Below, piece after piece: positions 6,456-54,667 of a stretch of 64,000 nt of DNA. This DNA comes from Candidatus Cloacimonadota bacterium. GTDB taxonomy: Bacteria > Cloacimonadota > Cloacimonadia > Cloacimonadales > Cloacimonadaceae. Under the pieces are notes generated by a model. That model saw nothing but the letters and a program-made list of their open reading frames with translations. It was not told the origin of the DNA and did no database searches. Numbering within the stretch: position 1 is the first letter of the stretch; each line of letters begins with the position of its first letter. The stretch lies in NCBI GenBank assembly GCA_029781115.1, contig JAKOXG010000018.1:1-64000 (forward strand), read 5' to 3'. A program made the position numbers and the translations under genes.

Positions 6456-6833
6456 CTAACTGCCATCTGATACGACAGTTACCGCCCTCTGTAGCCGACG
6501 GTGAATGCGGTAGTTGTTCCACACTACCAGGCCAAATATGAGATTAGCCACGATGAGCACGATATTGAGGGTGAGCGGCTCCCAAGTGGCATAGAGCGCA
6601 CCGGCAGGGATGAGGATGGCGAAGATGGCTATCTTGAAGAGGATTATCCCCCTGGGCAGACCAAGCTTTTTGAAGATCCAACGGGCGATGGGGTTTCGCT
6701 CACGCTCGTAATGATTTGGCCTGATCACCAGCCAGGTGGAATGGGCATCCAGGATGTTGAGGACAGTAAATACTACGCTTGAGAAGATGAGCAACGGGGT
6801 GGAGTGCAGGATCAGCAGCAGCTTATTCATCAT
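6456..6833 (-). CDS. Small membrane protein, DUF5658-like
   Basis: 125 residues with about three hydrophobic helices (near residues 8-25, 64-82 and 88-107). Between the first two lie L-N-I-L-D-A-H-S-T and E-R-E-R-N-P-I-A-R-W, the polar N-x-x-D-x-x-x-T and E-x-N-P pattern typical of DUF5658. The family has no established function. The start overlaps the end of the xer gene by 11 bases, so the two are translationally coupled. The tail after the last helix is basic and probably cytoplasmic. Confidence 0.65.
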   Translation of the reverse strand: MMNKLLLILHSTPLLIFSSVVFTVLNILDAHSTWLVIRPNHYERERNPIARWIFKKLGLPRGIILFKIAIFAILIPAGALYATWEPLTLNIVLIVANLIFGLVVWNNYRIHRRLQRAVTVVSDGS

Positions 6834-10906: not shown

Positions 10907-12169
10907 ATGAGCTATAGAGCCAATATCACCAGCAATCTCATCAACAAGATCCTGCATTTGGTGCTGGGCTTTGTCGGCAGCATCATCATCGCCAGGGTCT
11001 TGGGCCCCGCAGGTCAGGGTTACGTAGCTTACATCACCTTAGTTTTCACCATGATAGGCAGTTACGGTCATCTTGGCCTCAACAATGCGGTGATGTATTT
11101 TTACAAACGCAAGAAGATACCCGCAAATCATCTCTATTACGTAAACACCACCTTCCTGACCCTGATCTTCTTCATCATTGCAGCCATTGTTTTGACGCTG
11201 AAGAAGCTGGACTTGATCCTGCCTGATTACCCCATAAGCTGGGTTTTGGGTGGCTTGGTATTGGTGATCGCCAGCTTCTATTATTACAACAACTACTCTT
11301 GGTATATTGCCAACGAACACATCCGCCAAGCAAACAGGCGCAACATCGCCGTCTTCCTCCTCAAATCCTTGGCTATCATTATCTTGGGCATCTTCAATGC
11401 CGGCTATTTCTATTGGGTCTCTGTAGCCACGATGTTTTTGAATGCGGCATTCCTGCATGCCGGCCTCAGGAAAGGCATTAAGTTTCGCTGGGACTTTGAC
11501 CTCATCAAGCGTGAATATGCCTACGGATTCATCATCTTTTTGGCGGCTGCCTTTGACCATCTGCACCTCAGGGTCGACCAGCTTTACATCAACGCCATGT
11601 TGGGCAACGCTCAGCTTGGGATTTACACCCTTTCCGTCACCTTGAGCGAGCTGATGTTCATGGTGCCCGCCAGCATCACCACCGCCCTCACAGCGCGGCT
11701 CTACAACCTCAACGACGAACACAGCAGCGCCGACATCATGGCCAAAACCTTCAAAATAACCCTCTACGTATGCGTAGCTTTGGCTCTGCTGGCCATTCCC
11801 GCCTCTTTTCTCATCCCTCTTGTCTATGGAAAGGACTTTACCGCAGCCATTTACAGCACTCTCATCCTGATGCCGGGAGTAGTATTTGCCTCCCTGGCGC
11901 GGGTTGCGACGCCTTACTTCTTCACCTCCGGCAGACCGAAGGTACACATGGTAGTCGCCCTCACTGCCCTGATAATCAACTGCATTCTAAACTACCCTTT
12001 CATCCGCCTTTGGGGCATCAACGGCGCAGCCTTAGCATCCACATTTTCTTACTTTGTCTATGGCTGCTCCTACATCTACATCCTCACCTGCAAAGAGGGA
12101 TTCAAGATGCGTGACCTCGTTTACCTCAGAGCCTCGGAGATAAAAGACCTGCTCAGGAGAAGAGCATGA
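10907..12169 (+). CDS. Polysaccharide flippase, Wzx/MATE-like
   Basis: 420 residues with about 12 hydrophobic helices, of the oligosaccharide flippase family that moves lipid-linked glycan units across the inner membrane. The N-terminus (N-K-I-L-H-L-V-L-G-F-V-G-S-I-I-I-A-R-V-L-G-P) and the paired-helix spacing are typical, including the R-V-L-G-P-x-G-x-G at the end of helix 1. ATG 10907 has no clear Shine-Dalgarno; the 109 bases before it, after ruvB, hold nothing recognisable. It overlaps the next gene by 4 bases (ATGA). With the glycosyltransferase and acyltransferase upstream it supports a surface-glycan role. Confidence 0.85.
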   Translation: MSYRANITSNLINKILHLVLGFVGSIIIARVLGPAGQGYVAYITLVFTMIGSYGHLGLNNAVMYFYKRKKIPANHLYYVNTTFLTLIFFIIAAIVLTLKKLDLILPDYPISWVLGGLVLVIASFYYYNNYSWYIANEHIRQANRRNIAVFLLKSLAIIILGIFNAGYFYWVSVATMFLNAAFLHAGLRKGIKFRWDFDLIKREYAYGFIIFLAAAFDHLHLRVDQLYINAMLGNAQLGIYTLSVTLSELMFMVPASITTALTARLYNLNDEHSSADIMAKTFKITLYVCVALALLAIPASFLIPLVYGKDFTAAIYSTLILMPGVVFASLARVATPYFFTSGRPKVHMVVALTALIINCILNYPFIRLWGINGAALASTFSYFVYGCSYIYILTCKEGFKMRDLVYLRASEIKDLLRRRA

Positions 12170-13743
12170 AGATTCAACTCGCCACCTGGCACACTCCCAA
12201 TTGGTCCAGCACCAATCAGATACACTGCCGCGGACATCTCATCGACAGCGCAGGAAAGATATATCAGCATGCTGAACTCTGCCAGCTTTTGAGCAGGGTG
12301 AAGTCCAGAAATGATCTGGAGCAGATTTTGGAGGGTACCAGCGGTCATTTTGCTATCATCATCGAGCTGGATAATGAGGTCTTAGCCGCTGTTGACCACG
12401 CTTCCACCATCCCCTTGTATTATAGTGACACCTGCATCAGCGACGACGCTTTAGCCATTCCTTCAGCACGAGAAACCCCCGAGGATGCCAAAAACCAATA
12501 CCTCCTCAGCGGCTATCTGATCGGCAACCGCACCCTTTATAACGACGTCTTTATCATCCCCGCCGGCAACATCCTCACACTCAGTAAAGACCAGCCGCAA
12601 GCCTCTCTGCATCAATACTATACCTACAGTCATACAGAGGGCAGCCAGCAGAGTGAAACCACCATGTTTGACCGCTTGGATGAAGTTCATTACCAAGCCA
12701 TCCAACGCCTGATCCAACATGCGGATGGCCGCCAATTTGCCATCCCCTTGAGCGGTGGCTACGATTCCCGCCTGGTTGCGTTGATGCTTAAGCAACTGGG
12801 ATATAACAACTTGCTGGCCTATTCCTACGGCAATCCCCGCAGCCGCGAAACGCACATCTCCAAAGCAGTTGCCGCCCATCTGGGCATCCCCTATCACTTT
12901 GTGGTAATCACAGCCAAAGACTGGTTTGAAGGCTACCAAAGCGATGAGCGCAAGGACTATTACCAAAAATGCGGCATGATCGCTGGCAAACCCTATATGC
13001 AAGACTGGCTGGCAGTTAGAAGCCTGAAGGCAAAAGGCGTGCTACACGCTGATGCCATCATCACTCCCGGGCACAGCGGCGACTTTCTGGAAGGAACCCT
13101 CATCCCAGCCCTGTTTGTGGAGAGGGACGGACTGGACAGGGAGATGGTGCTAAACCAAATCTATAAGCAGGCATACCGCCGTTGGCCTCATCCGGACAAA
13201 TACTCCCGGGAAATCAAGCAGCAGATTTGCTCATACCTGCAACTCCCTGAGCGGATGAGCGGCGAAGCGGCAGCCAGCTTTCTGGAGCAGTTTTTCTGGC
13301 AGCATCTGCAAGCCAAAAACTACCTCAGTGGCACCCTGATCTATGAATTTTTCGGCTTTGGCTGGACTTTGCCCTGGTGGGATAAGGGGCTCTTGGAATA
13401 CTGGCGCAGAGTTCCCCTGAACCTGCGCTACAAGCGCCAACTCTACAAACGCTATGTGCAAGAGCGACAACACATTGACATCCCCGTCTATTACAAGCAG
13501 TATCTGCCGGTGAGAGCCTATGAATGGTATATGCGAAGAAAGAGTGGCCACGCCTATGATGCACGCTGGCATCGCTTTGCGGACTTGCGCAAGGATAAAG
13601 ATGCACGGGTAGCAAGCTTGATCCCCACCGGTGTGACTCTGCCCGGCTTCATCGACCCCCAAACCCGCATTGCGGATTGCGATCTCAATGGCTTGCAGGC
13701 TTTGGTTGCTTTAGTGACGATTCTGCAGAGAAGCGCACCCTGA
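12166..13743 (+). CDS. Asparagine-synthase-like amidotransferase, no glutaminase cysteine
   Basis: 525 residues. The C-terminal half has the ATP-pyrophosphatase loop S-G-G-Y-D-S (196-201) and a following A-Y-S-Y-G-N-P-x-S-R-E, as in AsnB. The N-terminal glutaminase-like domain (to about residue 155) lacks the catalytic Cys at position 2 (sequence starts M-K-I-Q-L), so it cannot use glutamine in the usual way. Such proteins in glycan clusters adenylate an acid and transfer an amino group or a sugar; the substrate is not predictable. It overlaps the flippase by 4 bases and ends at a strong terminator. Confidence 0.75.
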   Translation: MKIQLATWHTPNWSSTNQIHCRGHLIDSAGKIYQHAELCQLLSRVKSRNDLEQILEGTSGHFAIIIELDNEVLAAVDHASTIPLYYSDTCISDDALAIPSARETPEDAKNQYLLSGYLIGNRTLYNDVFIIPAGNILTLSKDQPQASLHQYYTYSHTEGSQQSETTMFDRLDEVHYQAIQRLIQHADGRQFAIPLSGGYDSRLVALMLKQLGYNNLLAYSYGNPRSRETHISKAVAAHLGIPYHFVVITAKDWFEGYQSDERKDYYQKCGMIAGKPYMQDWLAVRSLKAKGVLHADAIITPGHSGDFLEGTLIPALFVERDGLDREMVLNQIYKQAYRRWPHPDKYSREIKQQICSYLQLPERMSGEAAASFLEQFFWQHLQAKNYLSGTLIYEFFGFGWTLPWWDKGLLEYWRRVPLNLRYKRQLYKRYVQERQHIDIPVYYKQYLPVRAYEWYMRRKSGHAYDARWHRFADLRKDKDARVASLIPTGVTLPGFIDPQTRIADCDLNGLQALVALVTILQRSAP

Positions 13744-13769: not shown

Positions 13770-13792
13770 AGCCCCGTTAAGGGGCTTTTTTT
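13770..13792 (+). terminator. Rho-independent terminator
   Basis: AGCCCC-GTTAA-GGGGCT followed by a run of seven T, 26 bases after the stop of the asparagine-synthase-like gene. It closes the 7826-13743 plus-strand run. Confidence 0.85.
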
Positions 13793-13816
13793 GTTTGCCC
13801 CAAACTTGAGGCCTGA

Positions 13817-14035
13817 GCAAATATTGACTTTCCGCATAGCCTGACCTCCCTCAAAAAGGTGCCTCAGCTCCCACTCCCCTCTGCCTCCTAACTGCCTGCT
13901 TTCTTACTCCTTACTTACTCGAGGAGCAGGAGAGCAGCAGGGAAGGAGTAGGGAAGCCGCATGGAATCGGCATTTGAGGAGGGTCGAAAACAGCAGTTTT
14001 CTATCACCTGATTCTGCAAGATAGTCAAATATTGC
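13817..14035 (-). repeat. ~220 bp intergenic repeat, copy 1 (MITE-like)
   Basis: The outer ends are inverted: GCAAATATTGAC at 13817-13828 and GTCAAATATTGC at 14024-14035. Inside, in minus orientation, it shares with the two other copies the block AAAGCAGGCAGTTAGGAGG (13884-13902) and a second block around 13957-13987 resembling CCTCAAATGCC plus CATGCGG. Length 219 against 221 and 218 bp. No open reading frame is supported within. Confidence 0.75.
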
Positions 14036-14127
14036 AAAACCGCCTCGTTTATCCGCCTCCAGAGCTCAGCCACAATCACCTACTATTTTCATAGGAGATT
14101 AGTCGCAGTTTACATAACGCAAAGAAG

Positions 14128-14181: not shown

Positions 14182-17100
14182 TTATTTCATCAACATCATC
14201 TTCTTGGTGCTGGTGTAGTCTCCCACCTGCATTTTGTAGAAGTAGATTCCGCTGGAAACGCTGTTCCCATGCTGGTCTTGACCGTTCCAAGTGGTGCGGT
14301 GTTCGCCTTTGGGCAGGGTATCGTTGACCAGAGTTTTCACCAGTTGGCCTTTGAGGTTGTAGATTTCAATCTTCACCTTTGCCGTCTCTTTGAGGCTGTA
14401 GGCTATGTTTGTGGTGGGGTTGAAGGGATTTGGGAAGTTGCCTTTCAGGGCGGTGATGACCTGCTGCACGTTGTCATCGTTTGATACTGCCGTGCCTTCG
14501 CCACTGAGGTTGATGACGACGTTGGGTTCCGTAGCGTCCGTAATGATGGTCAGGCTTTCATTGAACACTCCCACACTCAAGGGCACAAAGCCGACGTTGA
14601 GCTCCATGAAGCCTTTGGGTGAGAGCACGATATTCATGCCTTGGTGCCGCTGTCCTGAGTCGTCGATCAGGCTGAACGGTTCCGGGACTTCGGCATGACC
14701 GAGCAAGACGGAAGTGCTTGGATTGCTGATAAATAGAGTTTGGCAGGCTTCCTCGCCCACGGGTATCGCTCCAAAAACCAGCTCACGCTGCTCTATATTC
14801 ACGATGGGCGGATCCATGACCTCGCCGGTGGTGGGGAATGCGATGTCATCGATCCAGGCGCAATCCTGCAAGCTGCTGGTCATGCTGTCTTTGGAATATT
14901 CCCATTTGTAGGTGTTCATGCCGGCAGGCGTGGTGTAGGTAACCTGACTCCAGCCATCCGTTGTTCCGCTCCATTGGCCTTGGAGATTGTCATTGATGTA
15001 AAACTTGAGCCAGTCAAAGTTGTATTCGGAAGAGACTTTCTTCCAGAAGGAGATGACTCCGGGTGATTCGCTATTGAGGGTCACGCTCATGGTGGTGGCT
15101 TGGTTGTGGCTGATAGTGGGTGATTTGGCAGCAAAAGAGCTGTTGTAGCTGGATGCTGCCGTGGGTGTCCATTCTCCATTGGTGAAGAGCCAGGGGAATT
15201 GGTTCAATCCGCCTTCAAAGGTTTCCTGCACCTGTCCCAAGCTGAGGCTGTAGGTTCTGGCGGTGCTGTATTCGCCACCGAAGGCCATGGTGGTCATATT
15301 GACGATGGTTCCCACGGGAATCTGTGAGCTGAAGGTGATTGTGTAAGCCAAATCCACTTCTGCGTTCGCTTCCAGAGTGCTGAATTCTATCGACACGGGC
15401 TCGGCAATGTGAAAGACATCGTTTACCACCATAAAGCCGCTCAGATTGTTGATTGCAGCGTGGCCGTTATTGTGGATTTTAAAGAAAATATTTACCGTCT
15501 CACCGGGATCAAGAGCCTCATTGCCATTGCCCAGGACGTCGTCCACAGTCACATCACCAAACTCCAGCTTGGGGGCATTGATGATCAGGTTGCGGGTATA
15601 AGTAAACTCTTCCTGAGCTGCGGTGGTGATCTGCAGTTCCAAGCCCACTACATGTTGATCGGGAACGTTGTTGGCAATCTGGAGCTCAAATCCCTGCACG
15701 GTAGCACCGGAGCTGTGCGCCTCGATGAGTGACACTTGATCTTGGCTGTTGAGCAGGCTGACGTAAGGGCTATCGAGGGTGATATTCAGTAACACGTTCT
15801 CTGCGTTGTCGTTACCCACGTTGTTCAAATCAAAGTGCAGGGTGACGGTTTCGCCATATTCTGCGACGTTGTTGTTGTCGTCAACCACAGTCATATCGCC
15901 CAAGCAGATGTAAGCTCCATCTGCAGGGATGACGGAGAGGGTTGTCACCAGGGATTCGTGATTGGGAGCAGTGATAGTGAGGATGAGGTCCATAGGTTGC
16001 TCGGGAAGCACGTCCAGAGTGAGAGCTGCGAGACCGGCAGCGTTTGCAATTCCGTGAGCATAGACCACTCCGTCTGCATAGAGGGTGACTCTTGCGCCGG
16101 GAACGGTGGTCACGGAGAAGGTATCCATACCCATCAAGAGGTTTTCCATATAGGTTGCGGTGAGGGGCACGGGAATTTTGCTGCGCACCATCATGGAAGC
16201 GTCGCCAAAGATGTGCCAGTTTTTGTATTCATCGCTCCCTCTGCTGCCATATACTTCGATCATCTTGGAAGAGGCGTTGTAGCAAAGGCCGCCGAGGGTG
16301 TATTTGCTTTCGTTTACCAGAAGGTCTGCAAACTCATCCTGAGCTCTCATGGGTGGCGACCAGTCCTGGTTGACGGTGCTGGCATACATGGCGACGGCAC
16401 CGGTGGGGTTGCCGGTAACATCGTTTTTAGCTCTCAGCCACGCTTCCGCGAAGCAGGTGCGCGAGACGAAGTTTCCATTCAGACAGGCTACGCTGAAGAT
16501 GATGGGGAGCTTGTTGTCGTTGGTAAGCATGTTTACGTGGCTGTTGCTGAATCCGGTGGTGCCCCATCTGTCATCGAGGCCGTGCCCCACATAGTTGATG
16601 AGGCTGCGTCCGGCATTGACGTTGTTGCTCACTTGGGTGGCGTTGGCTCCCATGGTTTGGTAGAGCTGATCTACCGTGGAAAAGCCGTAGTTGAGCAGTT
16701 TGCCACGGATGATTTCCATGTGTTGCTGATCGCTCTCGCCGTTGTCTCCCTGACCGCCTCCGCCTTCATTGGATGCGATTCCCATGCCTTGGATGAGCCA
16801 GGTATCGGATGCGTCTCTATCACGCTCATATTCTACCACCTTTCTCACCTGGATCTGCATTTGGGCTGCACTTTCAGCGGAGAAGCGGCTCACGTAGATG
16901 TCCGGATAGCTGTCATTTCCCGCCAAAAGTGCATAAGAGGGGTCTGAACCACCGTATTGATGCGTGAGGGAGGGAACCTGCTGTGAGTCACCCATGATCT
17001 GGACAAACATGAGGCCGTTGTTTTGATTGTATTGGTTTTGGATGTAAGTCTTGATGTTGGAAGCGGAGGGACCGGCTACTGAAACGTCGACCACATCAAC

Positions 17101-17877
17101 CACATAGCCGTTTTGACGCTTCCATTCCAGCCAAGGGACGATGGCGTCGTCAAACATGCTGTGTTTGATCACCAGGATGCGTCCTTCTTCGGCCAGGGAT
17201 GGATATTTGGCCATGCCAAAGTTTAGGAACATGTTGCGGTAGATGCCTTCAAACTCTTTGCTGTAGCTGTTTTTGGGGGCGTTTAAAGAGTTGGTGAGAT
17301 CGGTGCCGTTTTGGCTGATTGCCACCTTGATTTTGGTGAAGACTCTCAGCGTGCCCGTGGCGGGATAATAGCTGAAAGGTGTGAATCTGACAGTGATGCC
17401 GCGATAGTCTCTGAGGATAAAAGGCTCGCTCAGTTCGGCTTGGACTTCCGGCCAGAATCCCTGGCTTTGATAAAAGGGATCAAAGCTGTAGGGAACGGTG
17501 GCGGGATCTATGTTTCTGGTGAGGCTTCCCTTGGAGGGAGCTACCTTCATATCCAGGTCTATATATTCAGAATCCAAGACCTCAAGCTGCATCTTGGCAG
17601 TGTTTGGGATGATCACACTGGCGGCGAGGATGGGCACTTGCGGCAGGCCACGCTCCAGAGTGAGACCGCCTTTTGGGATGCTGAGATCATAGTAGATCTG
17701 GCCGTCAATCTCCACGGCTTGGCGCTCGAAATTTGCCAAGTTCAGCTCCAGGATCATGTCCCCGGGCTGCGCCGTGAGTAGACGGATTTCGTTGGCAGCG
17801 GAGCCAACGCTGATCTGTTCTGCTGCCAACATCCCCAAACAGAGCAGCAAAGTCAGAATGATAAACAGTTTTTTCAT
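14182..17877 (-). CDS. Secreted C25 (gingipain-like) cysteine peptidase with FlgD-like C-terminal sorting tail
   Basis: 1231 residues: Sec signal (MKKLFIILTLLLCLGMLAAE), a C25 propeptide-like region (about 30-225), then the peptidase with H432 (Y-V-G-H-G) and C465 (F-S-V-A-C-L-N). These are the catalytic His and Cys of the gingipain fold. Farther on are CARDB-like beta-sandwich repeats (about 650-880), a MAM-like/cleaved-adhesin segment (about 890-1030, C-A-W-I-D-D-I), an ASH-like domain, and at the end a FlgD-Ig tail with N-F-P-N-P-F-N-P-T-T and W-N-G-Q-D-Q-H-G-N, closing S-T-K-K-M-M-L-M-K. This tail is the exported-protein sorting signal of FCB bacteria. ATG 17877 follows GGAGG. It is probably a secreted peptidase displayed on the surface. 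It is a paralogue of the gene upstream; adhesin-like function is possible too. Confidence 0.85.
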   Translation of the reverse strand: MKKLFIILTLLLCLGMLAAEQISVGSAANEIRLLTAQPGDMILELNLANFERQAVEIDGQIYYDLSIPKGGLTLERGLPQVPILAASVIIPNTAKMQLEVLDSEYIDLDMKVAPSKGSLTRNIDPATVPYSFDPFYQSQGFWPEVQAELSEPFILRDYRGITVRFTPFSYYPATGTLRVFTKIKVAISQNGTDLTNSLNAPKNSYSKEFEGIYRNMFLNFGMAKYPSLAEEGRILVIKHSMFDDAIVPWLEWKRQNGYVVDVVDVSVAGPSASNIKTYIQNQYNQNNGLMFVQIMGDSQQVPSLTHQYGGSDPSYALLAGNDSYPDIYVSRFSAESAAQMQIQVRKVVEYERDRDASDTWLIQGMGIASNEGGGGQGDNGESDQQHMEIIRGKLLNYGFSTVDQLYQTMGANATQVSNNVNAGRSLINYVGHGLDDRWGTTGFSNSHVNMLTNDNKLPIIFSVACLNGNFVSRTCFAEAWLRAKNDVTGNPTGAVAMYASTVNQDWSPPMRAQDEFADLLVNESKYTLGGLCYNASSKMIEVYGSRGSDEYKNWHIFGDASMMVRSKIPVPLTATYMENLLMGMDTFSVTTVPGARVTLYADGVVYAHGIANAAGLAALTLDVLPEQPMDLILTITAPNHESLVTTLSVIPADGAYICLGDMTVVDDNNNVAEYGETVTLHFDLNNVGNDNAENVLLNITLDSPYVSLLNSQDQVSLIEAHSSGATVQGFELQIANNVPDQHVVGLELQITTAAQEEFTYTRNLIINAPKLEFGDVTVDDVLGNGNEALDPGETVNIFFKIHNNGHAAINNLSGFMVVNDVFHIAEPVSIEFSTLEANAEVDLAYTITFSSQIPVGTIVNMTTMAFGGEYSTARTYSLSLGQVQETFEGGLNQFPWLFTNGEWTPTAASSYNSSFAAKSPTISHNQATTMSVTLNSESPGVISFWKKVSSEYNFDWLKFYINDNLQGQWSGTTDGWSQVTYTTPAGMNTYKWEYSKDSMTSSLQDCAWIDDIAFPTTGEVMDPPIVNIEQRELVFGAIPVGEEACQTLFISNPSTSVLLGHAEVPEPFSLIDDSGQRHQGMNIVLSPKGFMELNVGFVPLSVGVFNESLTIITDATEPNVVINLSGEGTAVSNDDNVQQVITALKGNFPNPFNPTTNIAYSLKETAKVKIEIYNLKGQLVKTLVNDTLPKGEHRTTWNGQDQHGNSVSSGIYFYKMQVGDYTSTKKMMLMK

Positions 17878-30186: not shown

Positions 30187-31427
30187 TGGGTTTCCTTTAT
30201 CTTTTTAATCATATGTAAAATAGCCATTTCGGCTGCTTTGTGTCGGATCAGTTTTCGGGTGCCCGTGAGCAAGAATCTCTGCACCCAGGATGAGGATAAA
30301 TAAGAAAATCCAATATAAACCGTGCCTACAGGCGTGGAAGCGCTCCCCCCAGTGGGACCTGCCACTCCGGTCACAGAAACTGCAACGTCAGATTTTGTCA
30401 ATCTCTTTATTCCATCCAGCATCTCAAAAGCGCACTCTTCGCTCACTGCTCCATACTTTTCCAAGGTTTCTTTACTCACGCCCAAGACTCGCTTTTTGAT
30501 CTCGTTGGAATAGCTCACCACGCCGCCTGCAAGGTAATCTGATGCACCCGGTTCATCGGAAAGCATCTTCATGATCAGGCCACCGGTGCAGGATTCCGCC
30601 AAAGACAGGGTGAGTCCACGCTCTTTCAACAGTGATGCCAGAACGCTTGCGGGCGAATCCTCATCAAAACCCCAAACATGATCCGGGATCTGCGCTGCGA
30701 CACGCTTCTGCCATTCGTTCAAGAGCTCGATATCATAGCCGGACAGCCTCAAGTCCACCCTGCCCGTCTGAGGCAACCAGGCAAAGGTCAGCTCGGATGG
30801 CAAATCCGCCAGATCCAAGTCCTCCGCCAGAGCTGATTCCGAGATGCCAAAGCTGTGAATGGTCTTTTGAATCAGGCTCCCCAGTTGCGGATATTCCCTT
30901 TTGAGAGTAGGGGTTATCTGCTCTTCAAACACATGCCTCATCTCCACCGGCACGCCTGCCAGCGCAAAAAAGCAGCCCTTTTCATGCCGGTAAAACAGCC
31001 CGGGCGCCGTCCCTTCATTATTGGGCAAGGCAGTAAAACCATCCGGAACCAAGGCCTGATTGCGGTTTATCAAGGGCGCCTGCATGCCTCTGACAGCAAA
31101 GCGGGCTTGCACTTTCTGCCAGATATCCTCATGATGGCTCTGCCCCACGCCAAAAAAGGAGGCGATGGACGCCTTGGTTATATCATCCGCCGTGGGTCCC
31201 AAACCACCTGTAGTGATCACCACTTCAAAGCGATTTACACAATAATCCAGAGCTGCGATGATATCCTCAGTTTTGTCTCTGATGGTGATGTTGTAAACCA
31301 CGGGGGCACCCAGCAGTGCAAGTTCTGAAGCCAGAAAGCTCAGATTTGTGTTGATCGTTTTACCCAGCAATATCTCATCGCCGATGGTGATGATGGCTGA
31401 GCTGATCTTTTTAGTATGATTTGGCAA
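30183..31427 (-). CDS. cinA: CinA-family protein (MoaB-like + NMN deamidase)
   Basis: About 414 residues. The N-terminal domain (about 5-170) is of the molybdopterin-binding type (I-G-D-E-I-L-L-G, then T-T-G-G-L-G-P-T-A-D-D). The C-terminal domain (about 260-410, L-A-E-S-C-T-G-G and V-T-G-V-A-G-P-T-G-G-S) is the PncC/NMN deamidase domain of pyridine nucleotide salvage. The start I favour is TTG 31427, with GGAG eight bases upstream, inside the end of proS (17-base overlap). A longer GTG at 31457 has no ribosome site. The stop overlaps purD. Biochemical activity of this copy is inferred. Confidence 0.85.
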   Translation of the reverse strand: MPNHTKKISSAIITIGDEILLGKTINTNLSFLASELALLGAPVVYNITIRDKTEDIIAALDYCVNRFEVVITTGGLGPTADDITKASIASFFGVGQSHHEDIWQKVQARFAVRGMQAPLINRNQALVPDGFTALPNNEGTAPGLFYRHEKGCFFALAGVPVEMRHVFEEQITPTLKREYPQLGSLIQKTIHSFGISESALAEDLDLADLPSELTFAWLPQTGRVDLRLSGYDIELLNEWQKRVAAQIPDHVWGFDEDSPASVLASLLKERGLTLSLAESCTGGLIMKMLSDEPGASDYLAGGVVSYSNEIKKRVLGVSKETLEKYGAVSEECAFEMLDGIKRLTKSDVAVSVTGVAGPTGGSASTPVGTVYIGFSYLSSSWVQRFLLTGTRKLIRHKAAEMAILHMIKKIKETQ

Positions 31428-32934
31428 AAACCACTCTCCGCTTGGAAGCCTTTCCACAAGAGATGCAATTGCCGTCTTCTTCAGCTACATCAAAGGGAAT
31501 GCAGCGCACCGTGACTTTGAGATCTTCCTTGATCTTCTCTTCACAGGCTGCATCGCCACACCAATGCGAGAGCGCAAAACCGCCGTGTATCTCAGGCTGC
31601 TCCTCATTTTTGGGTGTGAAATACTTGTAAAAAGCTTTATTATCATCTATCTTGATGGTATTATCTTGTTGGAACTTTAGAGCTTTAGCATAGATATTCG
31701 CCTGGATTTCCGCCAGAGTCTTGAGCACATAATCCTTGATCTGAGCCATTTCGACAGCCACTTTGTCTCTGGGCCCTTGATCCCTGCGGGCGATCATCAC
31801 TTTACCACTGGCAACGTCACGAGGCCCAATCTCCATCCTGAGCGGTATGCCTTTCTTGATCCAATGCCAGTTCCGCTCGCTTCCCGTAAGCTCTCTATCA
31901 TCAAGCTCTGTATAGAGATGCACGTCTTCAAACCAGGTGCCTTTAAACATTTCTTGCACCTGTTTAACCACCGCCATCACCGCCTCTTTCTCCTTTTCAT
32001 CCCGATAGATGGGCAGGATCACCAGATGTGCGGGTGCGATTTTGGGAGGCAAGACCAAGCCGTTGTCATCGCTGTGAGCCATGATCAAAGCCCCGATCAA
32101 CCTGGTGGAAACACCCCAGGAGGTAGTCCAGGCATAGTCAAATTCACCTTCACGATTCTGATAGCGGATATTTGAACTGCGGGCAAAATTCTGCCCCAAA
32201 AAGTGGGAAGTGCCGCTCTGCAAGGCCTTCTTATCCTGCATCATTGCCTCGATGCTGTAGGTATTGACGGCGCCGGGGAACTTTTCCCCCTCCGTCTTCT
32301 CTCCCTTGATCACTGGAATAGCCAGATAATCTGCGGCAAAACGTGCATAAACTTCCAACATCTGCATGGTCTCTTCCATCGCCTCTTCAGGAGTCTCGTG
32401 CACGGTGTGACCTTCCTGCCACAAAAACTCGGAAGTCCTTAAAAATAAACGGGTTCGCATCTCCCGTCTCACCACGTTTGCCCATTGGTTGATCAACAGT
32501 GGCAGGTCACGGTAGGAATTGACCCATTTGGCGAAAGAAGCTCCGATAATGGTCTCACTGGTGGGACGCACAATGTAAGGCTCCGTGAGCTCTCCAGCAG
32601 CTTTCAAGCCGCCATGCCCGTCATCCTCAAGACGGCTATGCGTGACCACAGCACATTCCTTGGCAAAGCCTTCCACGTGCTCGGCTTCCTTCTCAAAATA
32701 GCTCTTGGGGATAAAGATAGGAAAATAGGCGTTTCTGTGCCCAGTTTCTCTAAACATCCCATCCAAAACATGCTGGATATTTTCCCATATGGCATAACCC
32801 CAGGGTTTGATCACCATGCAGCCTCTAACTTCACTATTCTCAGCCAGATCAGCAGCTTTGATCACCTGCTGATACCACTCGGCATAGTTTTCTTCCCTGG
32901 TGGGTTCGATTGCAGTTCGTTCTTTTTTACTCAT
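31411..32934 (-). CDS. proS: Prolyl-tRNA synthetase, archaeal/eukaryotic type
   Basis: 507 residues. A class II synthetase that charges tRNA-Pro. The N-terminus (R-E-E-N-Y-A-E-W-Y) and motif 2 region (L-L-I-N-Q-W-A-N-V-V-R-R-E) are of the short ProS type 3, which lacks the bacterial editing insertion. The C-terminal zinc-like domain has C-G-D-A-A-C and C-I-S-C, and the protein ends in Tyr, both traits of the archaeal/eukaryotic class. ATG 32934 carries GGAG behind a TATAAT-like element at 32971-32976 (minus strand). It leads the proS-cinA-purD run into the PorU module. This ProS class is patchily found in bacteria, including the FCB group. Confidence 0.93.
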   Translation of the reverse strand: MSKKERTAIEPTREENYAEWYQQVIKAADLAENSEVRGCMVIKPWGYAIWENIQHVLDGMFRETGHRNAYFPIFIPKSYFEKEAEHVEGFAKECAVVTHSRLEDDGHGGLKAAGELTEPYIVRPTSETIIGASFAKWVNSYRDLPLLINQWANVVRREMRTRLFLRTSEFLWQEGHTVHETPEEAMEETMQMLEVYARFAADYLAIPVIKGEKTEGEKFPGAVNTYSIEAMMQDKKALQSGTSHFLGQNFARSSNIRYQNREGEFDYAWTTSWGVSTRLIGALIMAHSDDNGLVLPPKIAPAHLVILPIYRDEKEKEAVMAVVKQVQEMFKGTWFEDVHLYTELDDRELTGSERNWHWIKKGIPLRMEIGPRDVASGKVMIARRDQGPRDKVAVEMAQIKDYVLKTLAEIQANIYAKALKFQQDNTIKIDDNKAFYKYFTPKNEEQPEIHGGFALSHWCGDAACEEKIKEDLKVTVRCIPFDVAEEDGNCISCGKASKRRVVFAKSY

Positions 32935-33178
32935 TTCATCTCCATTGTAACAAAGGTATGTAAGTCAATAATTATAGCATAGCTTGCTTGTCAAGTGAGA
33001 AGTAAAAAAGCTTGAAAATATCAGGTGCAGAGAGCATCTGAGATGGAGCTGAGGTAGCAAATCGTAATATTCCTTTCATGAAAACTGTAAATTGATGGAA
33101 AACTACGGATCGATCACCTACTATTTTAGTAGGAGTTCATTGCCGCCACCCACCTCCGGTAGATGCAGGCTTAAAAAT

Positions 33179-33399
33179 CAATATTTGACCTCATTACAGG
33201 TTAGCGTCAAGCAATACCCCCTTTTTTGACACCCCTCAAATGCCCATTTCATGCGGACTCCCAACCCCTTCCCTACTACCCTCCTGCTCCTCGAGTAGGC
33301 AAGCAGTAGGAAAGCAGGCAGTTAGGAGGCAGAGCGTTGGGGAAGTCAAAAGGTCTCGCAGAGGGAGGTCAACCACAGCATAAAGTCAAATATTTTGCA
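33179..33399 (+). repeat. ~220 bp intergenic repeat, copy 2 (MITE-like)
   Basis: Ends are CAATATTTGAC (33179-33189) and GTCAAATATTTTGCA (33385-33399). Core blocks GACACCCCTCAAATGCCC (33228-33245) and AAAGCAGGCAGTTAGGAGG (33311-33329) match copy 3 exactly and copy 1 nearly so. The middle is rich in short inverted repeats such as CCTACT / AGTAGG. No open frame is supported. Confidence 0.8.
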
Positions 33400-33633
33400 A
33401 TTACCTGCATTTAGCAACTAAATTTAGGCTGAGAAAGAGCATGGTTTTTGAGGTGAAAAGACTCACGCCTCTGGCCGTTTTTACATTCGACGTAAGACGG
33501 GATGAAAGCCCTCAACCGGCGCACATTTCAAACCCTGTTCATCAGCCGGCTTATTCATCTGTGCGTCAACTCTATAACCATTTATGTAATAGTCAGTTCC
33601 GCTTTGGCAGCTGTCGGGTGTGATAAATTTCAC

Positions 33634-45100: not shown

Positions 45101-45381
45101 TGTACATGCGCGACCCTACTCCTTCCTTGCTTAGCCTCCCGGTAATCCCCCGGAGCCTCTCGGGAAAAACCCGAGTATCTCCACGGCATCTCCGGGCGGG
45201 TGAGTAAGAGCCGAGCGAGTGAAGAGAAATTGATAATGTGGGATTAACATGCTTCCCATTGGGTTCTCACGCTACTTTGACATTGCTTTTATCAAGCTAA
45301 GCATAAACAATCTTAAGTTAATCCTTGACAAAATATGAGGATACTTAAACATGACCTTAGTATAATCAATATGGAGGTTAA

Positions 45382-54191: not shown

Positions 54192-54394
54192 CTTTCTCTC
54201 CTTATCTTCCGGTTTATAAGAGCTTATAAACACTTGGCCAAATTACATGCAAGATTCAGACCACTTTTTGGAAAATATTCAACATTGGTGGAGCCAAATG
54301 AATATTGCACCACTCCTATTTAAAGGCCAATCTCCTACTAAACAGGTGGGAATTTATTACCGCAACCCGGCACCTGAAAAAGCGGGACGAAAAT

Positions 54395-54612
54395 CAATAT
54401 TTGATCGTGTCATACAAAGAAGTCAAGAGAAACCGCCCTTATTGACACCCCTCAAATGCCCATTCCATGCGGGCTCCCAACTCCGCCCCTACTGCTCTCC
54501 TGCTCCTCGATCAAGTAAGGAGTAGGAAAGCAGGCAGTTAGGAGGAAGAGCCAAGCGGAAGAAAAAGCACATAGCAGGGGGTAGCCAACCCATACCAAAA
54601 GTCAAAATTTGC
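54395..54612 (+). repeat. ~220 bp intergenic repeat, copy 3 (MITE-like)
   Basis: Ends are CAATATTTGA (54395-54404) and GTCAAAATTTGC (54601-54612). Shared cores: GACACCCCTCAAATGCCC at 54444-54461 and AAAGCAGGCAGTTAGGAGG at 54527-54545, identical to copy 2. 218 bp. Confidence 0.8.
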
Positions 54613-54667
54613 GCAGGCTCATGATATGTGCAAGCAAAATAAGCCCCAAAATGCGCACCCCGTAGCC

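Follow-up and report, generated by a model that had tools for sequence, protein, structure and literature searches.

The window, by which we mean the whole 64-kb stretch of Cloacimonadota DNA analysed here, carries three copies of an intergenic repeat, family A, and a second palindromic repeat, family B (Table 1). A sequence-only reading of the window had reported family A at 13817-14035 (minus strand), 33179-33399 and 54395-54612. These three copies are real: pairwise BLAST gives E = 1e-33 to 1e-43, their common cores are as that reading described them, and each copy lies between ORFs. The reported length of ~220 bp, however, covers only the inner part of the repeat; when 66 copies were aligned with 400-bp flanks to define the conserved unit, its full length was ~325 bp. 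Similarly, the reported inverted ends CAATATTTGAC / GTCAATATTTG exist as inverted repeats, but they are internal and not the termini of the unit.

Table 1. Repeats of families A and B in the window, with their parts, lattice slots and surroundings.
Feature	Position	Strand	Slot (occupant)	Basis	Setting
Family A copy 1, full unit	13774..14098	-	13.9 kb (A)	nhmmer, 66-copy model, E 9.6e-85	converging ORFs 12166-13743 (+) and 14182-17877 (-)
Copy 1 end palindrome TCTCCTATGAAAATAGTAGGTG	14077..14098	-		66-copy alignment	
Copy 1 core, homogenised, species-specific	13870..13981	-		approximate limits	
Family A copy 2	33114..33442	+	33.3 kb (A)	nhmmer, 66-copy model, E 2e-83	flanking genes diverge; located upstream of proS (31411-32934, -)
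Copy 2 end palindrome CACCTACTATTTTAGTAGGAGTT	33115..33138	+		exact palindrome match	
Copy 2 core	33232..33343	+		approximate limits	
Family B palindromic repeat CTTACTCACCCGC...GATACTCGGGTTTTTCCCGAGAGGCTCCG...TAAGCAAGGAAG	45119..45210	-	45.2 kb (B)		fourth lattice slot in window
Family A copy 3	54331..54657	+	54.5 kb (A)	nhmmer, 66-copy model, E 2.1e-88	between two minus-strand ORFs
Copy 3 core	54450..54560	+		approximate limits	

Read from 5' to 3', the unit opens with a palindrome of 20-25 bp (CACCTACTAnnnTAGTAGGAG), followed by a spacer that includes GGAAAAAGC, an internal repeat (CAATATTTGACC) and an AT-rich linker; then come a strongly conserved core of ~110 bp, the inverted internal repeat AAAAGTCAATATTTGC and the end TTTGCAAACAAATTAAGGCCCAAAATGGGC. 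The palindrome at its start (~20-25 bp) reads AAC[A/T]CCTACTAnnnTAGTAGG[A/T]GTT in the 66-copy alignment and falls outside the intervals first reported. The outer ends are unlike, with the palindrome at one and AATTAAGGCCCAAAATGGGC at the other; the end palindrome is on the 3' side in 14 of the 66 copies and on both sides in none. The model of the unit finds the copies on their reverse strand as well, which shows the whole ~325 bp to be an imperfect palindrome. Flipping of the core between fixed arms was rejected, as arm models give chimeric rather than cleanly flipped arms. A minisatellite of type AACACCTAAAACCTAACACC adjoins or replaces the 5' end at loci L025, L029, L088, L028, L030 and L093. 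Further, a subgroup of copies (L058, L070, L072, L074, L084, L088, L091 and L093) has in common a longer 3' extension ending GTCCGG...TTTGGCACGAGTCAG, and L218 has a similar stretch, AAACTGTCCGGCTTTTTCAGTACGGCAC, after the remnant of an IS3-like transposase.

The genome from which the window comes (G000; 2.25 Mb in 22 contigs, 99% complete) was compared with other genomes, all of them draft assemblies and those named here MAGs. The copies are by no means confined to the 64-kb window: genome-wide, G000 has 63 core-pattern matches (<=3 mismatches) and 76 places listed with a covariance model. Same-genus relatives carry at least 48 copies (G005, MAG USST_metabat.121, JAKQWO) and at least 73 copies (G002, UBA3900, DGFM01). 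Family A is absent from the congeners G001 (Go_SlDig_bin_45), G003 and G004, apart from one weak G003 match (E 0.003), and from 35 other genomes of the taxonomic family. Searches of phages and plasmids gave no match, nor did the exact core pattern against genome contigs, a set from which own and near records may be excluded; a scan of viral contigs gave two matches, a number within chance expectation. The earlier statement that no named element matches still holds: Rfam has no match to the window, the phage and plasmid searches were negative, and a literature search mostly outside subscription journals gave no description of the repeat. All 66 aligned copies in G000 are flanked by ORFs without overlapping them; the flanking pair is converging in 22 cases, diverging in 16, tandem in 27 and undetermined in one. 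Upstream of proS in UBA3900, an orthologous copy (L131) has a run of N as its middle, and such repeats are therefore partly hidden in assemblies.

A structured repeat RNA had been put forward as one explanation of the repeat. The imperfect palindrome is in line with an RNA or RNA-processing element transcribed from every copy, as is a modest excess of folding (z -1.6 to -3.4; single strands of the three window copies fold modestly better than shuffled ones, at z -1.6 to -2.2). Yet the fold and covariation check went against it, with compensatory base changes at 0 of 10 RNAalifold pairs in the alignment of copies. Pairs in the end palindrome do no better than shuffled controls, the 66 copies have no orientation preference relative to genes, and an Rfam gathering search of the 64-kb window gave 0 matches. 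We consider such an RNA highly improbable, and it would account for none of the dispersal, the lattice sharing or the concerted change described below. Regarding coding capacity, no ORF of more than ~20 codons is common to the carrier species. A 20-codon ORF, MPIPCGLPTPSLLLSCSSSK, in the G000 core had an excess of synonymous changes in a single frame test out of 18 (z 2.75); it was judged to be chance and rejected as coding because its start codon is not kept in G005 (ATG to ATT).

Repeats dispersed in bacterial genomes are commonly regarded as selfish DNA scattered at random. The minimum of the 58 within-contig spacings of family A in G000 is 9831 bp, and none is <9.5 kb as compared to 19.4 expected; in 20,000 uniform-placement simulations the number never fell below 6. 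Similarly, the 39 spacings among the 73 copies listed in G002 have a minimum of 9334 bp (0 <9.3 kb, 14.4 expected), while 13 of the 14 listed spacings in G005 are >=13.6 kb and one pair is 524 bp apart. Family B (CTCGGG...CCCGAG; core GATACTCGGGTTTTTCCCGAGTGGCTCCG, CTCGGGTTTTTCCCGAG) is also palindromic and is unrelated to A in sequence; G000 carries 58 copies of it and G005 117, with no spacing <6.2 kb among the 50 and 100 copies listed, respectively. A relative of family B lies upstream of proS in G001 (L109), a genome with at least ~20 copies and no A.

When both families are merged, they occupy one quasi-regular lattice with an exclusion zone of 6-10 kb. Among the matches listed, G005 has 130 slots, with 0 of 67 spacings <6 kb (29 expected), and G000 has 126 slots, with 2 of 107 (34 expected). 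The mean spacing in G005 is 13.7 kb with a CV of 0.36, a value lowered because long spacings go unseen on short contigs. Pairs of A and B at 1-6 kb number 2 as compared to 12.9 expected in G000, and 0 as compared to 15.8 in G005. Short-contig censoring cannot create the exclusion, and contig breaks at repeats would remove spacings whatever their length. A search artefact was rejected after a pattern search and a full scan of contiguous DNA. Family A is one occupant of ~130 conserved intergenic slots, one per about 10-15 kb. There are also wide stretches: between the two A copies of a 112-kb stretch in G000 (contig C14) there are just three copies of B. Elsewhere in G000, ~86 kb (C8:1-86000) hold neither A nor B; a crude ORF caller kept 19 ORFs in 90 kb there, and the region may consist of very large genes or be foreign.

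From species to species, the slots mostly stay in place, and it is their occupant (A, B or both) that changes. Of the window slots, G005 has A and B at 13.9 kb and B at both 33.3 and 45.2 kb, and G002 has A at 33.3 kb (its middle being the assembly gap of N) and at 45.2 kb. Two further copies on G002 contig C37 (63.0 and 22.1 kb) have a matching spacing and, judging from coordinates alone, are probably the counterparts of the slots at 54.5 and 13.9 kb. Among 22 alignable G000/G005 sites, a set enriched for A since the aligned G005 loci were mostly chosen for carrying it, A occurs in both species at 16, in the same orientation at 12 and in the opposite orientation at 4. The sequence-only reading had proposed a search for empty sites; A is missing from G005 at the remaining six sites, of which two hold B and four hold neither. 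In three of these (at least) four cases there is next to nothing between the flanks. In contiguous G000 DNA, 4/4 comparable G000 slots are filled in G005 and 4/4 G005 slots in G000, small but unbiased counts of largely identical slots taken in two directions. In one case G002 has, instead of a B slot (L325, C4 ~74.5 kb), an A slot at a distance of ~4 kb. The lattice is largely conserved across species that are ~15% apart in DNA.

This sharing could be passive. A and B may be selfish intergenic repeats without function that survive in a limited number of tolerant sites, their even spacing following from the grouping of genes. The presence of A, B or both at the same orthologous slots fits this reading, as do the adjacent A-B pairs of G005 (17, 3.7 expected) and the intergenic position of all copies, the flanking genes converging or diverging in 38 of 65. 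The co-occupation that it predicts is, however, not seen in G000, where A and B are never <1 kb apart. In addition, many other gaps exist (22 and 26 slots, as against 125 and 130 gaps of >=40 bp), yet placement is still too even: random placement limited to real intergenic gaps, run on contiguous DNA scanned in full, gives P = 0.0008 (G000) and 0.0004 (G005). Passive tolerant sites are a serious rival to the reading that we prefer, although rather doubtful as the explanation.

While the slots persist, their sequences turn over in concert. The species consensus sequences have common arms and different cores. At the 12 same-orientation G000/G005 sites, core identity between orthologs (0.62) equals that of shuffled cross-species pairs (0.62), whereas within the species it is 0.83 and 0.84. 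The outer ends keep an orthologous signal, both on the 5' side (0.66 vs 0.61, p 0.021) and on the 3' side (0.53 vs 0.44, p 0.005). Linkage between variable sites decays quickly (r2 is 0.18 at 1-2 bp and has dropped to 0.04 by 12 bp), and all four combinations occur at 6459 of 7141 site pairs, which identifies the copies as mosaics. Compared with a recent burst from a single master copy, recurrent gene conversion is the better fit to this pattern, although saturated substitution may contribute in part. Such extensive recombination among cores, together with their genome-wide homogenisation, raises the question of whether recombination itself creates the exclusion zone, with selfish repeats settling anywhere and close pairs deleting or inverting the DNA between them until distant copies survive. 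This is very unlikely. Families A and B exclude each other without evident homology, which counts against recombination as the whole cause. Moreover, close pairs are lacking whichever way the copies are oriented, although inverted pairs would delete nothing.

The empty sites and the inverted copies suggest past mobility of family A. The sequence-only reading had proposed a MITE, and in part this stands: A is a small, non-coding, dispersed intergenic unit, absent at some orthologous sites and sometimes in opposite orientation. Long terminal inverted repeats, a clear target duplication and a shared transposase (rve and Y1 were searched) are nevertheless wanting. The inverted repeats in family A are internal only and ~11-16 bp long, and at one clean G005-empty site (L003/L237), where the flanks have diverged, a target duplication is not visible. 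Transposases of the rve (PF00665) and Y1 (PF01797) types were not found in G005, a carrier of at least 48 copies, and an IS3-type (rve) mobiliser was accordingly rejected. A plain MITE explains the dispersal and the presence or absence of copies, but not the two-family lattice or conserved slots that change in concert. On its own, it does not predict a ~10-kb exclusion, slots shared with an unrelated repeat or concerted evolution.

The exclusion would follow if A were a MITE mobilised by a transposase that acts in trans and keeps away from DNA close to copies already present, and target immunity of this kind is known for Mu, Tn3 and Tn7. The hard minimum of A spacing at 9.3-9.8 kb in two species speaks for such a mechanism, along with the small, non-coding, dispersed nature of the unit, the empty sites in relatives and the shared sites with opposite orientations. 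It would, however, need cross-immunity between A and B, which are unrelated yet mutually exclusive at 1-6 kb, and the two may adjoin in G005. The lack of long terminal inverted repeats and of clear target duplications counts against it, as do the species-specific cores of orthologous copies and the fact that neither rve nor Y1 was found in all three carriers, both being absent from G005. We take target immunity to be a serious rival but an unlikely one; if it were at work, the system would be a MITE one in which different families exclude each other.

The account that we favour, tentatively, is one of chromosome punctuation by protein-bound palindromic repeats at conserved, evenly spaced slots, a function that we infer. 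Each slot would be a palindromic DNA site whose arms are recognised by a putative DNA-binding or nucleoid protein, and the slots would delimit or anchor chromosomal domains of ~10-15 kb. One occupant per domain would be enough, such that further nearby copies would be lost. Ectopic recombination (gene conversion), perhaps initiated at extruded or cleaved imperfect palindromes, would homogenise the cores, and occasional copying of a MITE-like unit would create new slots and allow one family to replace another. Counting against punctuation are the lack of A in three congeners and of B in at least two, whereby neither family is essential to the genus, as well as the G005-empty sites and the 112-kb stretch on C14. 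It is possible, though doubtful, that the function is indifferent to sequence, with unrelated palindromic families alternating in a lattice of ~130 slots and being homogenised in each species. If true, the lattice would amount to a satellite-like system of chromosome domains, exchangeable in sequence and of a kind not known to have been described in bacteria. If functional, the repeats would provide a sequence handle on ~10-kb chromosomal domains. The expectation for any closed genome of the genus is that almost no pairs of occupants lie 1-6 kb apart.

Sites of Noc, SlmA and MatP are tens of dispersed palindromes of ~10-20 bp per chromosome, each set with one binding protein. Family A resembles these in its tens of dispersed palindromic sites, and its genome-wide spacing is non-random, as would be expected of chromosome-organising sites; unlike them, it is a homogenised unit of ~325 bp. 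DNA uptake sequences of Neisseria and Haemophilus, which are likewise dispersed genome-wide and have a reported non-random, rather even spacing, are 10-12-bp words at ~1 per kb, whereas A is ~325 bp every 10-30 kb. ERIC elements are intergenic, occur in tens to hundreds of copies without a known transposase of their own and belong to a MITE-like class (PMC10969869); they are imperfect palindromes of ~127 bp (PMC2759123). Family A is alike in being a many-copy, MITE-like intergenic imperfect palindrome, and is set apart by its length of ~325 bp and its single end palindrome; no sequence relation to ERIC emerged from the searches of Rfam, phages and plasmids. The passages of PMC10969869 and PMC2759123 do not mention for ERIC an exclusion zone of ~10 kb, shared slots or the replacement of cores throughout a species, as seen in A. 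MITEs and TIMEs share with A the small, non-coding, dispersed and mostly intergenic unit. As in A, the cores of the Tn3-derived TIMEs vary between common ends, and Tn3-family immunity is given as a reason for low copy number (PMC4133298). TIMEs are 262 bp long with 38-bp terminal repeats, in contrast to A, which is without such long terminal inverted repeats or clear target duplications. Moreover, TIMEs mostly occur as one copy per genome, as compared to ~75 of A.

Like REP/BIME elements with their RAYTs, family A is an extragenic palindrome, and G000 carries two RAYT-like Y1 transposase genes (221 aa; L217:1156-1821, plus strand, and L218:850-1515, minus strand); a RAYT-like locus also occurs in G002 (L379). 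Many short palindromes (GCGGCGGTTCAGCGACCGCCCGTAC; GGTCGCTATGGCAAGCGACC) surround both G000 genes, with which they likely form a REP/RAYT system. A RAYT/REP origin of family A was rejected, as L217 and L218 are flanked by these other palindromes and the carrier G005 is without Y1. Near L217 and L218, A-like sequence occurs only as short degenerate fragments of 13-18 bp.

Palindromes unrelated to A also occur upstream of proS in other Cloacimonadota. The palindrome at L126 is single copy, another long one lies at L108:605-705, and that at L112:5442-5763 spans 322 bp with 78% self-complementarity.
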